Shown one piece after another: positions 23,726 through 64,000 of a stretch of 64,000 nucleotides of DNA. Under the pieces are notes generated by a model. It did no database searches, was not told where the DNA came from, and saw only the letters and a program-made list of their open reading frames with translations. Made by a program: the position numbers and the translations under genes. Origin of the DNA: Candidatus Peregrinibacteria bacterium CG10_big_fil_rev_8_21_14_0_10_55_24 (lineage in GTDB: Bacteria; Patescibacteriota; Gracilibacteria; Peribacterales; Peribacteraceae); assembly GCA_002772745.1 (NCBI GenBank), contig PFDV01000001.1, forward strand, positions 62,001-126,000, written 5' to 3'. Positions within the stretch are counted from its first letter, which is position 1, and each line of letters starts with the position of its first letter.

Positions 23726-23762
23726 ATTGGGGAAACTTTCACCGAGCGAAATACAAAAACAT

Positions 23763-23781
23763 GGTGGGCCGGGAGGGATTT
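23763..23781 (-). repeat. Truncated copy of the tRNA-Tyr 3' end
   Basis: 19 nt identical to the CCA end of the intact tRNA-Tyr gene (23894-23912). The copy stops abruptly and is followed by TACTTCGACTCC and a CCCCTCGGC...GGGG-type palindrome, a REP-like sequence. Confidence 0.75.
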
Positions 23782-23893
23782 ACTTCGACTCCTCCCCCTC
23801 GGCTCCGCTCGGGGTCGTCGCTCAGCATAAACTTCTCATCCCTCCCAAGAACTGTTTCTCAATTCTAGAGGGGCTGAGTTCGTCATTCTATTC

Positions 23894-23981
23894 TGGTGGG
23901 CCGGGAGGGATTCGAACCCCCGAAGGCATAAGCCACCTGATTTACAGTCAGGCCCGTTTGACCGCTTCGGTACCGACCCAC
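23894..23981 (-). tRNA. tRNA-Tyr (GTA)
   Basis: Minus-strand cloverleaf: acceptor stem GTGGGTC / GGCCCAC, D-arm, anticodon stem CCTGA/TCAGG with loop CTGTAAA (anticodon GTA), a long variable arm typical of bacterial tRNA-Tyr, T-arm GGGGGTTCGAATCCCTC and an encoded CCA. It is complete and probably functional. Broken copies of its 3' end (left) and 5' half (right) flank it. Confidence 0.95.
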
Positions 23982-24017
23982 AATACAATGCGATGAGAAG
24001 AAATGAGCGAAGGGCCT

Positions 24018-24093
24018 GGCCCGTTTGCCTGCCCGTCCGTAGCCCCGAGCGTAGTCGAGGGGCGAAGGCGGGACCGCTTCGGTACCGACCCAC
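24018..24093 (-). repeat. Broken copy of the tRNA-Tyr 5' half, split by a REP-like insert
   Basis: 24018-24027 and 24073-24093 together match 23951-23981 of the intact tRNA gene (5' half through the anticodon stem). A 45-bp insert (24028-24072) containing the palindromic CCCCGAGCGTAGTCGAGGGG splits them. Confidence 0.75.
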
Positions 24094-49541: not shown

Positions 49542-49661
49542 AGAAAACGGGGAACGGGGACACTAGCGTACTGGTGCAGTGGCACAGGGACAAGGGATCC
49601 CCTCGTATCTTGACATATCACCTCAAAAAGGAAGAGCATCACTCCCTTTCCTCTTCCCATC

Positions 49662-50030
49662 ATGGATGAACGCAGAGCACACGAACGTTACATGCGTATG
49701 CCCCTCGGGGAATTAAGACAGCGCAGCGCCGAACTGCACGCTCAACAAGAAGCCGACGGCCGCCTCACCAGAGGCCAGCGCACCTATCGCAAACGCCTGA
49801 AAAGAGCTCTTGAGACGAGCAAGGGGATGCAAGACTACGCCAAAGCGAGGGGCATTGCATCGAAGGGAAAATTCCGGCTGACTCCTGAGCAACGGTACGA
49901 CGAGGGATATGACATGGGAACAGATGATGCAATTTTTGGGCATCCATCAAAGGAAACCACAATTATGGACGAAATGAAACGGAAAGGATACCACTGCGGA
50001 TACGTGGACCATCGCATGGTAGATGTCTGA
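49662..50030 (+). CDS. Hypothetical basic protein
   Basis: 122 residues, soluble. Arg/Glu-rich helical N-terminal half (MRMPLGELRQRSAELHAQQE) and a C-terminal half with RYDEGYDMGTDDAIFGHPSK and KGYHCGYVDHRMVDV. No family recognised and no membrane segment. The ATG is the first in frame. Transcribed toward the displaced tails of the TraG-like gene. Confidence 0.6.
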   Translation: MDERRAHERYMRMPLGELRQRSAELHAQQEADGRLTRGQRTYRKRLKRALETSKGMQDYAKARGIASKGKFRLTPEQRYDEGYDMGTDDAIFGHPSKETTIMDEMKRKGYHCGYVDHRMVDV

Positions 50031-50057
50031 TCGTTCCGTTTTGATTACTCTTCTGCT

Positions 50058-50099
50058 CTACCGAACAATCCCGATCCGATCTTCGATTTCTCGGTCGAC
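50058..50099 (-). repeat. Displaced copy 2 of the TraG-like gene's 3' end
   Basis: Encodes VDREIEDRIGIVR and TAG on the minus strand, the tail of the gene at 50246 (VDQEIEDRIGIVR, TGA) with mostly synonymous changes. The internal edge joins CCTTCGGCGAATC. Confidence 0.85.
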
Positions 50100-50162
50100 C
50101 CTTCGGCGAATCACACCGCTCGCGATCGACGTAACAAACTCAGGGTATCTCTGAGGTAATCT

Positions 50163-50204
50163 CTATCTTACTATGCCGATTCTATCTTCGATTTCTCGGT
50201 CGAC
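50163..50204 (-). repeat. Displaced copy 1 of the TraG-like gene's 3' end
   Basis: Encodes VDREIEDRIGIVR and TAG again. Shares the 21-bp stretch for VDREIED exactly with the other copy but differs from it at later codons. The internal edge joins CCTTCGCCAAGCTCAGAGC. Confidence 0.85.
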
Positions 50205-50245
50205 CCTTCGCCAAGCTCAGAGCAGGCTTCTTCCCTGGTGCACCA

Positions 50246-52855
50246 TCATCGTACAATCCCAATTCTGTCCTCGATCTCCTGGTCGACGAAGACCTTTTTC
50301 CTGCCGTACTTCATGCGGCTGTACTCCTTGATGAGCTGAGCAAGCTTTTCGTTGCGGTTGGTTTCGTCGTAGATCGTGGTTAGGTTGAACGGACGCGAAG
50401 GGACATTGTTGATGTTCAGTTTGCAGTAACAGCTGAAGTTCGGGATGCCGATAACATCCTGTTCGGAGAGCACCGGCGCGTACTCCTTGGCCATGTACTC
50501 AGCATCTTCGGCGCCGACTTTAAAGCTCATGATCGTGCCAACGTTACCGAAGATTGCGTCGCGCATCTGGCTACTGGCTTCGCCGTACGCCTCAGTTTTT
50601 CCCACCAACTGTCCGATGTACTGGTGCGCCATGATGAGTGCGAGCTCATACTTGCGCGCCTCGGAGAGGATGGTGACGAAGGCATCGGTGACGAAGTTTT
50701 GGAATTCGTCTACGTACAAGTAGAAACGGCGACGCTGCTCCTTGGGGACATCGGCACGCGAGAGCGCGGCCATGTTCACCTTGTTCACGAAAATGAGTCC
50801 CAGGAGCTGAGCGTTGATGTCGCCGATCTTTCCTTTGCTCAGGTTGACCAGGAGCACCTTGCCGTTATCCATGACATCACGAATGTGGAATGCGCTTTTG
50901 GGCTGCCCGATGATGTTGCGCATCGTGGTATTCGTTATGAAGGGACCGAACTTGGAACTGAAGTACGGGATCATCTCCTCCTTCTCGCGTGCGCCGGTTT
51001 TGGCCATTTCGTGCTCCCAGAACGTGCGCACAACGGGGTTGCGGCACTTGCTCACCTTATAACGCTGGAACTCGTCGTCCACGAAGAGACGCGGGACGTC
51101 GATGAGCGTCGCCCCTTCCTCCTCATCATCCATGAGTGTTAGGCAACCGTTGCGGAAGTAGTGCTGAATCCTGGGTCCGAAGATCTCATTGCCAAAGAGC
51201 TTGAGGAAAATCTGCATCGCATCCAAGGACGCGCGATCCTTTTCCTCGTCAGTTTTGGCTTCGAGCAAATTGAGCCCCATAGGTCGCTCGAGATCCGCAG
51301 GATCGAAGACGATGATGTCCTTCACACGCTCTTTGGGCGCATGGGCCAATGCATCTTCAATCAGATCTCCGTGCGGATCCACAATGCACACTCCCTGGCC
51401 ATTCGCGATGTCCTGGCGCGACATGTACGAGAGGAGCGTTGATTTACCTGAACCGGATTTTCCGATGATATACTGATGACGTGTACGATCCTTATCGAGG
51501 AAGTGGATCTCCGTTCCCACGCCACGGTGATTGTTGATGCCCAAGAGAATGCCCTCCTGCGGAGCATTGGGCGGCGGCGGAAGCACCTTGTACGTGCTCC
51601 ACTGGATGATGGGAATACGGTTGTAGCGGCTGTCCGGGAAGTGATAAATCCCTGCTAGCTCCCTCTCAACGAGCAAATTTTCCTTGTGCACGTATCCGTT
51701 GAGACGCTTTTTCCACAACTGGTAAATGAGCGGCGCGTTCCATGAAAGTGGCAGGAAGTCGACGAACATCCGCCTGTTGGCGAAGTGGTTGCCGTAGAGA
51801 TCTTTGAATGCATTAAAAGCCACCTGCATGTTGTTGGTGACCTCCATGGAACGCTGGTAGCTCTTGCTCGCTGCAAGGATGCGGATAGACGCATGGTAAA
51901 AACTCATGCCTGCCTTCTCGCCCATGCGTTTGTAAAGTTCTTCTTCCGGCTGAATCATGCGCACGTAGGAGTCTCCGCTCGAAGCCCCCGGGGCAAAGGT
52001 CTTCCCCTCGGTACCGCCCATCACACCACCGAAGATCCTGAAGAGAGTACCCACGATGGGAATACGCGACATCCACCAGTCCTTCTTGCCCTTAAAGCTC
52101 ATTGTCGCTTTGCGCTTCGCAATCACTCCCCACCTTGCGGAAAACGACGGCGTGAGCACGACTTGTACGGCCGCCGTTTCGTCATCCGTCATTTTGGAAA
52201 GCACGTTGGCGATTCCGTTGAGCGGATCATCCTGCATCTGCTCATAGAACCGGATAGGAAACATGAAATCCTTCTTACACACCAGGTTGTACCCCACGAG
52301 CTTTGATCCTTTAGGCCATACATCCGGTGTCGGGCTCGGCGAAACTTCGGCATCCGAATAAAATGCGGTGATCTGTTTTTCGACGATCGAAGCGAGATGC
52401 GGACTTGTAACGACGTAGAACATCAGCTGTCCCCGGTCTACAAAGAGCTCGAAGCTCAAGACGATGTGCCGGAAGAACCAGAAATGGAGCATCTGCCAGA
52501 AGTTGAGGTTTCTGACTTCCCACAGTGCTCGGTAGAGTTGCTCCATCACCGCAACCTTCTCCTTAAAATCTTTCTCCGTACGCTTCTCCTGGTCCATTTT
52601 GCTGTCGTCACGCGGGAGAATAACCTTGAGAGAAACGAGGGTCTTCGACTTCCACAGCGCATACGCGAAACGGCCCCAGTGTCTGAAGAGACGCCAACAG
52701 AGGTAGATCGTGAGGAGGAGGAGAACTCGCTGGAACGGTGCATCGATGAACCACCGCCAGAGTATTCCCCATACACCCGCATGGACTACCGTAGTGACGA
52801 CGGCCACAGTTATCCAGATGATCGGCCAGAGGAAGAAGCGGAGAAACGTGATCAC
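50246..52855 (-). CDS. TraG/VirD4-like membrane ATPase with DUF87-type helicase core
   Basis: 869 residues, GTG start. Two N-terminal membrane helices (about 5-60), a 350-residue central region, then a HerA/TraG-like P-loop ATPase: Walker A IIGKSGSGKSTLLSYM, VDPHGDLIEDALAH, Walker B YLYVDEFQNFVTDAF and a glutamine finger region LIMAHQYIGQL. Such proteins couple substrates to type IV secretion or pilus machines. In this lineage they occur with small VirB2-like pilins, three of which lie at 55.9-58 kb. The C-terminal 13 residues exist in two more displaced copies next door. Confidence 0.88.
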   Translation of the reverse strand: MITFLRFFLWPIIWITVAVVTTVVHAGVWGILWRWFIDAPFQRVLLLLTIYLCWRLFRHWGRFAYALWKSKTLVSLKVILPRDDSKMDQEKRTEKDFKEKVAVMEQLYRALWEVRNLNFWQMLHFWFFRHIVLSFELFVDRGQLMFYVVTSPHLASIVEKQITAFYSDAEVSPSPTPDVWPKGSKLVGYNLVCKKDFMFPIRFYEQMQDDPLNGIANVLSKMTDDETAAVQVVLTPSFSARWGVIAKRKATMSFKGKKDWWMSRIPIVGTLFRIFGGVMGGTEGKTFAPGASSGDSYVRMIQPEEELYKRMGEKAGMSFYHASIRILAASKSYQRSMEVTNNMQVAFNAFKDLYGNHFANRRMFVDFLPLSWNAPLIYQLWKKRLNGYVHKENLLVERELAGIYHFPDSRYNRIPIIQWSTYKVLPPPPNAPQEGILLGINNHRGVGTEIHFLDKDRTRHQYIIGKSGSGKSTLLSYMSRQDIANGQGVCIVDPHGDLIEDALAHAPKERVKDIIVFDPADLERPMGLNLLEAKTDEEKDRASLDAMQIFLKLFGNEIFGPRIQHYFRNGCLTLMDDEEEGATLIDVPRLFVDDEFQRYKVSKCRNPVVRTFWEHEMAKTGAREKEEMIPYFSSKFGPFITNTTMRNIIGQPKSAFHIRDVMDNGKVLLVNLSKGKIGDINAQLLGLIFVNKVNMAALSRADVPKEQRRRFYLYVDEFQNFVTDAFVTILSEARKYELALIMAHQYIGQLVGKTEAYGEASSQMRDAIFGNVGTIMSFKVGAEDAEYMAKEYAPVLSEQDVIGIPNFSCYCKLNINNVPSRPFNLTTIYDETNRNEKLAQLIKEYSRMKYGRKKVFVDQEIEDRIGIVR

Positions 52856-60174: not shown

Positions 60175-60252
60175 GGCGGGTGTAGCTCAGTTGGTTAGAG
60201 CGTCTGGTTGTGGCCCAGAAGGTCGAGGGTTCAACTCCCTCCACTCGCCCCA
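60175..60252 (+). tRNA. tRNA-His (GTG)
   Basis: Acceptor GCGGGTG/CACTCGC with the extra G-1 opposite C73, anticodon stem TCTGG/CCAGA, loop TTGTGGC (anticodon GTG), T-arm GAGGGTTCAACTCCCTC, encoded CCA. G-1:C73 is the His identity element. Next to hisS. Confidence 0.95.
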
Positions 60253-60255
60253 CAT

Positions 60256-60350
60256 CACCTATATCGAGGAGAGCTCAGTTGGTTAGAGCGTCTGGTCAGA
60301 GCCCAGAAGGTCGAGGGTTCAACTCCCTCCACTCGCCCCACATATAGGTG
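60256..60350. repeat. Inverted repeat enclosing the tRNA-His copy
   Basis: CACCTATAT (60256-60264) and ATATAGGTG (60342-60350) are perfect complements and enclose the altered tRNA copy. Confidence 0.75.
60263..60340 (+). pseudogene. Altered tRNA-His copy (pseudo-tRNA)
   Basis: Offset 88 nt from tRNA-His and identical over most of 70 nt, including the T-arm and CCA end. The 5' acceptor strand is changed (ATCGAGGAGA instead of GGCGGGTGTA) so it no longer pairs. The anticodon loop is TCAGAGC instead of TTGTGGC, with C33 in place of the invariant U33. It cannot be a normal tRNA. Confidence 0.8.
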
Positions 60351-61832: not shown

Positions 61833-61902
61833 AGGAGTCAGGCATTGGCACAGACCGACTCGAAATCCTCGCATGGTAAATGCGCTCTGCTTCCTGACTC
61901 CT
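61833..61902. repeat. Inverted word pair (AGGAGTCAGG/CCTGACTCCT)
   Basis: 10-bp perfect inverted repeat, 61833-61842 and 61893-61902, between hisS and the gyrB tail copy. Same style as other word arrays. Confidence 0.6.
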
Positions 61903-61934
61903 CAGATATCGAGATTCTTCACTCCCTCTGCGTG
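61902..61934 (-). repeat. Displaced copy of the gyrB 3' end
   Basis: Encodes HAEGVKNLDI and TGA on the minus strand; the functional gyrB end (61981-62013) encodes HAKGVKNLDI and TAA. Changes are two synonymous codons, one K/E and the stop. Its internal edge joins GTCCCTTCGACAGTGCTCAG, a REP-like sequence. Confidence 0.85.
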
Positions 61935-61980
61935 GTCCCTTCGACAGTGCTCAGGACCCTTCGCAGAAAATCCATTCGCA

Positions 61981-64000
61981 TTAGATGTCCAAATTCTTCA
62001 CTCCCTTTGCGTGGGTCTGGATGAACTTTTTGCGCGGAGCGACCTCCGCACCCATGAGCGTGGAGAAAGCGGCATCGGCACGTTCTGCGTCATCTGTCGT
62101 AACACGGAACATACTGCGGCTCTGGGGGTTCATCGTGGTATCCCACAATTGTTCCGGATTCATTTCTCCCAAACCCTTGTAGCGCTGGATGGCAACGCGG
62201 GAACTCTTTTGCACTGCTTTTTTCTCCCCCTCAGATTCCGTTTCTTCAGCTTCTTCAACCTCTTGAGCTTCTTCCGGATTCATCACCTCCTCTGTTGCCT
62301 TAAGATCTACACCAAGCTTCGTGAGTGTCTCCTCTTTTTCCTCATCGGTGTACACGTAGTGCATCTCTTTTCCCTTGGCGATCCTGTAGAGCGGCGGTTG
62401 CGCAATGTAGAGGTGCCCGCCCTCAATGAGCTCCGGGAAATAACGGTAGAAGAGCGTAAGGAGCAGGGTACGGATGTGTGCGCCATCGACATCGGCATCG
62501 GTCATGATCACGATGCGATCGTAGCGAAGTTTGGAGAAATCTTTCACGTCGCCGATGCCGATTCCCAGAGCAATGATCAAGGACTTAATCTCGTTATTCG
62601 CCAACATGCGATCCAGACGTGCCTGCTCTACGTTGAGGATTTTGCCGCGCAGAGGAAGGATGGCCTGGAACTCTCGATTGCGGCCCTGCTTCGCTGAACC
62701 ACCGGCAGAGTCACCCTCGACAATGAAGAGCTCGCACTCGCCGGGGTCCTTGCTGGAGCAGTCGGCGAGTTTTCCGGGGAGTGTCATGCCTTCCAATGCC
62801 CCCTTACGAATCACGCTGTCACGAGCAGCGCGCGCGGCCAAGCGGGCGCGCGAGGCCAGAAGACACTTGCCCACGATATCCCTGCCTTCGCCTGGATGTT
62901 CCTCCAGGTACTCGGCAAGCTTCTCATTGACCACGGTTTCCACGGCGGTCTTCATCTCGGCGTTGCCGAGCTTGGATTTGGTCTGCCCCTCGAACTGCGG
63001 TTCTTTGAGTCGCACGGAGATCACGGCTGTGAGCCCCTCACGCACGTCATCCGCCGTGAGATTCTCTTCTTTCTCTTTGAGAAAACCCTGTGCACGCGCG
63101 TAGGCATTGATAGTCCTCGTGAGCGCCGACTTGAAACCGGTCAGGTGATGGCCGCCCTCAGAGGTGTGAATGTTGTTCGCAAAACTCACCACATGCTCCT
63201 GGAATGCCTTGGTGTACTGCAGAGCGATCTCCACAAAACCGTCATCCGTATCTTTCTCGAACCAGATGGGCGTACCGATGCGCTCCTTGGACTCGTTGAG
63301 GTGCAGCACATAGGCGCTGATTCCCCCTTCGAAGTGGAAACGGTACAGACGTGGATGCAACTGATCTTCCTCAGGACGCACCTTACGCTCATCGAGAATG
63401 GCGATGGTCACTCCACGCGTGAGGTACGCCTGCTGGCGCAGGCGCGTCATGAGCATGTCCATGCTGAAGACCGTCGTGTCAAAGATTTCTTCGTCCGGCG
63501 TGAATCTGATCATGGTACCGCACTTCGTGGTTTTGCCTTCCACGGTGAGTTTTGTCGTGGGTTTCCCCCTGCTGTATTCCTGCACATAAATTTTTCCTTC
63601 GCGATACACCTCCGCGCGCATCTTTATGCTCAACGCATTCACCACGGAAGACCCAACGCCATGCAAACCACCGGAGACTTTGTACCCGCTATCGTCACCG
63701 CCGAATTTACCGCCTGCATGGAGCGTCGTGAGGACGATCTCCAACGCCGGGCGCTTGAGTTTGGGGTGCATATCGACCGGAATGCCGCGTCCGTTATCAT
63801 CCACACTCACCGATCCGTCGTCATGGAGCACGACAATGATCTGTGTGCAGTATCCACCCATGGCCTCGTCGATTGCGTTGTCGACAATCTCATAGACGCA
63901 GTGATGCAATCCACGCGTATCGGTGGACCCGATGTACATGCCTGGACGCTTACGCACGGGTTCCAGACCTTCAAGAACCTGAATCTGTCCTGCGCCGTAG
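61981..64000 (-). CDS. gyrB: DNA gyrase subunit B (5' end beyond the window)
   Basis: 672 residues visible; the frame is open through the right edge and lacks only the first few codons (reads YGAGQIQVLEGLEPVRKRPG at the edge). GHKL ATPase: YEIVDNAIDEA (Glu/Asn), DDNGRGIP, GGLHGVGSSVVNAL. Transducer domain QTKSKLGNAEM. TOPRIM: FIVEGDSAGGSAKQGRNREF, IMTDADVDGAHI. A Glu-rich insert (about 25 residues) precedes QRYKGLGEMNPEQLW. Introduces negative supercoils together with GyrA. Its last ten codons exist as a displaced copy at 61902. Confidence 0.97.
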   Translation of the reverse strand, partial: YGAGQIQVLEGLEPVRKRPGMYIGSTDTRGLHHCVYEIVDNAIDEAMGGYCTQIIVVLHDDGSVSVDDNGRGIPVDMHPKLKRPALEIVLTTLHAGGKFGGDDSGYKVSGGLHGVGSSVVNALSIKMRAEVYREGKIYVQEYSRGKPTTKLTVEGKTTKCGTMIRFTPDEEIFDTTVFSMDMLMTRLRQQAYLTRGVTIAILDERKVRPEEDQLHPRLYRFHFEGGISAYVLHLNESKERIGTPIWFEKDTDDGFVEIALQYTKAFQEHVVSFANNIHTSEGGHHLTGFKSALTRTINAYARAQGFLKEKEENLTADDVREGLTAVISVRLKEPQFEGQTKSKLGNAEMKTAVETVVNEKLAEYLEEHPGEGRDIVGKCLLASRARLAARAARDSVIRKGALEGMTLPGKLADCSSKDPGECELFIVEGDSAGGSAKQGRNREFQAILPLRGKILNVEQARLDRMLANNEIKSLIIALGIGIGDVKDFSKLRYDRIVIMTDADVDGAHIRTLLLTLFYRYFPELIEGGHLYIAQPPLYRIAKGKEMHYVYTDEEKEETLTKLGVDLKATEEVMNPEEAQEVEEAEETESEGEKKAVQKSSRVAIQRYKGLGEMNPEQLWDTTMNPQSRSMFRVTTDDAERADAAFSTLMGAEVAPRKKFIQTHAKGVKNLDI

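Follow-up and report, generated by a model that had tools for sequence, protein, structure and literature searches.

Hairpin-linked units carrying spare gene ends recur at gene borders in a Peregrinibacteria genome and its relatives

Introduction

Several described systems bring small DNA elements to the ends of genes or spread hairpins through genomes. Tyrosine-recombinase elements integrate at tRNA and gene 3' ends. REP sequences (REP/REPIN/BIME with TnpA-REP, or RAYT) are small dispersed palindromes with many copies per genome and a cognate Y1 gene flanked by REPs. MITE and IS insertions leave a target duplication, an identical repeat that is independent of gene borders, and homology-facilitated illegitimate recombination in natural transformation combines one homologous side with one non-homologous joint. 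In IS200/IS605, the cleavage site is paired with a tetranucleotide guide on the 5' side of a hairpin, and such guides can be retargeted (PMC8266576).

Here we describe an architecture consisting of a gene end, a short unrelated spacer, a hairpin and a second gene end. It was analysed in a window of 64,000 nucleotides from Candidatus Peregrinibacteria bacterium CG10_big_fil_rev_8_21_14_0_10_55_24, a member of a Peribacteria-type CPR lineage with a tiny genome, elsewhere in that genome and in its relatives. These hairpin units of 80-130 bases with their spare gene ends point to an undescribed form of gene-border rewriting that leaves the genes unbroken.

Results

The window contains a gene for a TraG/VirD4-like ATPase of the T4SS coupling-protein type (traG below), with Pfam matches to TrwB_AAD_bind (2.5e-12) and T4SS-DNA_transf (7.5e-11) and a homologue in every relative searched. 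Two stacked units lie at its end. In what follows, T is the repeated gene end (T_new native, T_old displaced) and X the spacer.

50246..52855, minus strand: TraG/VirD4-like gene, 869 aa
50246..50287, minus strand: native traG end (T_new), VDQEIEDRIGIVR-TGA
50205..50287, minus strand: inner unit of 83 nt (T_new, spacer X and hairpin core); its 83-nt spacing is of the class found at other loci
50205..50220, minus strand: REP-like core CTGAGCTTGGCGAAGG, the exact core of the dispersed family
50163..50204, minus strand: displaced traG end 1 (inner), VDREIEDRIGIVR-TAG
50100..50204, minus strand: outer unit of 105 nt (displaced end 1, spacer and a core interrupted by extra bases)
50100-50143: interrupted core of the outer unit, CTGAG...CGCCGAAGG
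50058..50099, minus strand: displaced traG end 2 (outer), VDREIEDRIGIVR-TAG

On the coding strand the native tail GTCGACCAG...CGATGA is followed by a spacer, CTGAGCTTGGCGAAGG and a displaced tail GTCGACCGA...AGATAG, and then by a second spacer, the interrupted CTGAG...CGAAGG and a further displaced tail GTCGACCGA...CGGTAG. Both displaced tails comprise the last 14 codons and start at the identical Val codon directly after CGAAGG. The coordinates and peptides given for the native end and both copies by an earlier sequence-only reading of this DNA are confirmed. That reading had also noticed CCTTCG at both copies; CGAAGG does precede each on the coding strand, as the end of a REP-like hairpin and not as an arbitrary hexamer. 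Remnants of full paralogous genes, which it had named as a way to overturn its interpretation, would show homology extending upstream into the gene body. No such upstream remnant is found at traG: homology begins at the Val codon, and the hairpin stands before it.

A 26-nt probe for the copy junction has exactly two matches in the window, with 0.00 expected in shuffles, and the whole 1.29-Mb genome holds no further exact copy of the traG tail. The two copies are identical over 27 nt (CGAAGG+GTCGACCGAGAAATCGAAGAT), including a Gln-to-Arg change that is absent from all native tails read in relatives. Their differences are confined to the last codons and affect five codons, all synonymously. Two wholly independent rounds of the event, as first proposed, are not supported, since the copies have this 27-nt 5' part with its non-synonymous change in common. 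From this shared part and the synonymous 3' differences we infer that a unit-bearing donor and the resident gene recombined by a crossover inside the gene end, which would explain the stacking without two de novo events. An Rfam search of the traG locus gave no match.

Displaced traG tails occur in 8 of about 66 related genomes (10 copies), and all are broken at the same codon after CGAAGG, in agreement with the site specificity proposed from the window alone. The pattern in which AAGG is joined to the Val codon of the traG tail recovered 9 copies in 7/74 family genomes and 0 with the reversed control; a broader traG-tail pattern added genome G081 to the copy-bearing genomes. Stacked traG copies are present in the window genome (G000) and in G070, and stacking recurs at rsmI in G074, so that stacking is not confined to the window. 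Only in G076 are the two ends separated by about 0.9 kb. The same genomes were recovered in the public collection, where they carry independent project names, and the presence of the traG structure in independent public MAGs rules out an assembly artefact.

The region between traG and ybaB (49542-50245 in the window, and its counterparts in relatives) is an insertion hotspot whose accessory genes differ among genera, with a Y1 transposase in G030 and an apparent patatin-like gene in G015, G082 and G084. The traG end of G028 carries a 690-bp insert (L022 4000-4830) that lacks a core. It contains a small gene, another full tail, and a ybaB start fused to a traG tail as a chimera, and is likely a product of homology-assisted illegitimate recombination.

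The hexamer CGAAGG forms the 3' foot of a REP-like hairpin, CTGAGCnnnGTCGAAGG, which is dispersed and has a variable middle. Of the 74 family genomes, 62 contain the strict core, with zero matches for reversed controls. The window genome has 27 pattern matches versus 9 with the reversed pattern, and 6 versus 0 for the strict core. Where an outer stem is present the core folds into a stem closed around its loop, which is not the case at the traG site of the window genome. Among the 14 exact cores in the scanned stretches of this genome, an outer stem of 4 bp or more that can pair with the opening bases of T_old is seen at six (versus 0.46% of random sites), and seven carry a flush direct repeat with a score of 11/14 or higher (versus about 1.5% of random sites). 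Cores with one mismatch have neither outer stem nor flush repeat (0/24). This guide-like complementarity is strong mainly in the window genome and absent at its traG site.

Copies of the core from a single genome (G063, for example) vary almost at random in their three middle bases, while the flanking bases are fixed. REPIN-like inverted pairs of cores occur in relatives; in G064 (L269, G064:C8:8051-8068) the core of such a pair lies in frame inside rsmI, within an open frame of 312 aa. A second core class, cctgtc/cctgcc-CTGAGC...GAAGGg (L162-L187 in G031, L290-L302 in G063, L129 in G070), is associated with flanking repeats of 8-15 nt, mostly 38-nt spacing and low-complexity sequence. The open papers that were searched for the repeat sequence contained no match, which does not prove that it has never been mentioned.

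The structure had been read as a property of the TraG-like gene, a view not supported in light of its presence at rsmI, alaS, atpD and tRNA ends: it is genome-wide and hairpin-linked. Repeats at cores in the window genome are the ends of neighbouring genes, namely CDS tails, the rsmI start and tRNA ends. Further examples in the window are as follows.

61902..62016, minus strand: second unit of the class, at the tail of ORF 61981-63957, spacing 79
61938-61954, minus strand: core of that unit, CTGAGCACTGTCGAAGG
about 61902-61937: displaced tail of the same ORF, HAEGVKNLDI-stop
23762..24093, minus strand: tRNA-Tyr (23894-23979) with both ends displaced beside hairpins
24072-24093 and about 23762-23780, minus strand: displaced copies of the tRNA-Tyr 5' and 3' ends, respectively
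60176..60340, plus strand: tRNA-His (60176-60252), followed at a spacing of 88 by a displaced copy that covers most of it

The rsmI start is displaced at an identical codon in seven genomes (G000, G065, G074, G081, G022, G011 and, in decayed form, G012), twice in G074 at a distance of 79 nt. By eye, the rsmI hairpin of G022 shows a compensatory change from CCT/AGG to CCC/GGG. Displaced starts are also found at alaS in G069 and at atpD in G063, which in addition has a displaced tRNA end and epimerase tail; alaS, atpD, the epimerase and the rsmI of G065 were named by eye from translated ends. In 380 phylum genomes, the rsmI structure was not seen outside the family; the pattern used there was stricter and overlooks even some of the cases known within it. 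One rsmI pattern match, in G031, proved to be a false positive in unrelated sequence.

Displaced tRNA ends lie beyond a hairpin at 12/22 tRNA genes in 464 kb of the window genome, compared with 0.33% per random end; this test followed a core-independent search for closely spaced direct repeats. The same test gave 1/8 in the family member G027 and 0/8 in the outgroup G051, and the statistic thus describes one genome and two comparators with few tRNAs. The hairpins at tRNA genes belong to several families, e.g. CCTGCCGGCAGG and ...CGAAGGCGG, and with few exceptions they directly abut the displaced end. At L257 (G000:C8 398506-399165) two divergent tRNA-Val genes form a large inverted repeat, and both have stacked displaced 5' ends at GACGAAGGCGG hairpins.

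Codon differences between T_new and T_old are overwhelmingly synonymous: 55 synonymous and 5 non-synonymous in total at traG, 24 and 2 at rsmI. Neutral decay of a relic would lead to mostly non-synonymous changes. From the almost exclusively synonymous differences we conclude that the displaced copy still worked as a gene end in the recent past. Decay is visible in several displaced ends (Q3R, G10V, a lost start codon in G065, a lost stop in G022). The sequence-only reading had raised orthologous replacement, and the synonymous divergence of displaced and native ends is what is expected if one end comes from another lineage; T_new is not consistently the more foreign of the two ends, being so in G031 and the less foreign one in G076. 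Lineage-specific traG C-termini (IQR, MVR, ITR) are common to T_new and T_old of one genome, and any donor is thus close. The traG body beside the joint is closest to congeners wherever these are available for comparison. In G031, T_old abuts the convergent ybaB, a gene order that differs in its congeners; this arrangement suggests that T_new, X and the hairpin together may constitute the insert. Several structure assignments were made by eye from printed alignments.

Beyond the gene end, identity is about 26% (97/375) versus 27% in re-paired controls when three exact tandem copies are set aside; the 33.8% of the full set (p 0.0065) is driven by the tandem copies. Successive ends mostly begin 78-91 nt apart; this repeat distance holds irrespective of how much of the gene is involved and is greater with a longer hairpin. 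T plus X is near 65 nt, although T itself can be as short as about 10 nt or as long as 45 nt. Spacers at one locus are homologous across genera (G000, G070 and G068 at traG; G081, G011 and G065 at rsmI), which implies that units travel or are inherited as locus-specific lineages. The displaced rsmI starts of G081 and G011 have homologous outer flanks as well.

Discussion

What we observed, and what an explanation has to cover, is the anatomy of the units, the exact junction at the hairpin foot, its recurrence, the roughly constant length of T_new plus X, the synonymous divergence and the general loss of homology beyond the gene end. We consider it plausible, if somewhat short of an even chance, that these units arise by hairpin-directed joining of incoming orthologous gene-end DNA and are later spread by homologous recombination. 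At a point within its own end, the resident gene would be connected to incoming DNA consisting of T_new, a short foreign flank X and the REP-like hairpin. The 3' foot of the hairpin would be joined to resident sequence, which picks up again where the resident version of that gene end, T_old, begins. As the incoming piece would bring a complete gene end, the gene would stay intact and the resident end would be pushed outward as a relic. The donors would be relatives, probably of the same genus. The joint may be made by an activity that recognises hairpins, either a single-strand (HUH/Y1-like) or a recombination activity, and that uses the guide-like bases before them. Existing units would then spread and stack through ordinary homologous recombination, for which the gene body on one side and T_old on the other would supply the flanking homology.

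A REP/MITE-like insertion with a long target-site duplication would account for the structure differently: X and the hairpin would be a mobile element of 42-55 bp and T the duplicated target, and an insertion would survive only if its duplication takes in the gene end. Three young-looking cases with identical T (L148 45/45, G074 30/30, G070 39/39), some homology past the gene end at the tRNA-Gln, -Pro and -Glu units (by eye) and the separate class in relatives with 38-nt spacing and repeats of 8-15 nt fit such an origin. It is nevertheless unlikely, as homology overall stops at the gene end, neutral decay would be expected where 55:5 synonymous differences are found, and T plus X stays near 65 nt despite the variation in T. 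That both ends are functional and under selection, through reversible excision switching or as a regulatory leader, agrees with the synonymous-only differences, which are also seen when G081 and G011 are compared at their displaced rsmI starts; the decay of several displaced ends makes it highly improbable.

Illegitimate recombination facilitated by homology during DNA uptake, with the hairpin as a passive block or protected end, has a likely example in G028, where the traG/ybaB chimera of the 690-bp insert is joined at a short homology without a core. The ordinary traG copies differ from it: the nucleotide junction at the hairpin foot is identical in 10/10, and the junctions inspected by eye show no microhomology, so that we find this origin quite unlikely for the units at large. 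Integration of tiny non-autonomous elements by a site-specific recombinase, with an attP carrying a gene end, would predict tRNA and gene ends as targets, a restored gene end with a displaced remnant, stacking, and the same codon in many genera, all of which are seen. Yet one genome has many unrelated targets, which share no common core sequence and include both 5' and 3' gene ends, and the usual units of 80-130 bp carry neither cargo nor integrase. This, too, appears very unlikely.

For hairpin-directed joining, RAYT/Y1 genes were the obvious candidate drivers, and we reject them in this role: they are rare in the window genome, which has only one weak Y1 transposase match (PF01797), and they are not near cores in relatives, where three of the 30 Y1 loci examined have core-like matches, none of these within 800 nt of the Y1 match. 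The several hairpin families at tRNA seams also imply that one enzyme may not explain all units. More tentatively, and with less confidence than in the joining itself, we propose a general hairpin-directed process in Peribacteria that inserts replacement gene ends as units of fixed size, with the target set by hairpin-adjacent bases instead of a fixed attachment sequence. The borders of tRNA and conserved genes would thereby be rewritten time and again without harm. If this is true, REP-like hairpins in these ultra-small bacteria are no mere passive repeats and mark joints at which gene ends are exchanged together with their flanks (promoters, terminators, neighbours). In one genome, over half of the sampled tRNA genes would have such a joint. 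They would constitute a readable fossil record of recombination in mostly unculturable lineages, and the activity behind them would be a candidate for a new way of joining single-stranded DNA.

The units share features with several of the described systems. Unlike in MITE and IS target duplications, similarity here stops at the gene ends, and only the tandem copies and a few tRNA units depart from the chance level in the flanks. Tyrosine-recombinase elements in tRNA and gene 3' ends likewise restore the gene end, displace a remnant and stack; unlike them, the units of 80-130 bp are too short for an integrase, carry no cargo, and occupy many targets including 5' ends. One homologous side and one non-homologous joint are found in homology-facilitated illegitimate recombination as well, whereas the joint here is fixed at the hairpin foot. 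The likeness to REP/RAYT systems lies in the short imperfect palindrome with its variable loop, dispersed in many copies per genome, and in the REPIN-like pairs of relatives. In contrast to REPs, the foot of the hairpin is joined to a second version of the end of the neighbouring gene, no GTAG tag is seen, and no RAYT was found adjacent. We claim no membership in IS200/IS605, whose expected transposase neighbourhood was not found among the Y1 loci of relatives examined and from which the units differ by a pairing of up to 9 nt that varies from locus to locus, a single hairpin and the gene-end copy. Their logic nevertheless resembles the scheme of guide, hairpin and cleavage site (PMC8266576): at six of the 14 exact cores scanned in the window genome, but not at traG, sequence on the 5' side of the hairpin can pair with sequence on its 3' side, in the manner of guide and cleavage site in these elements.
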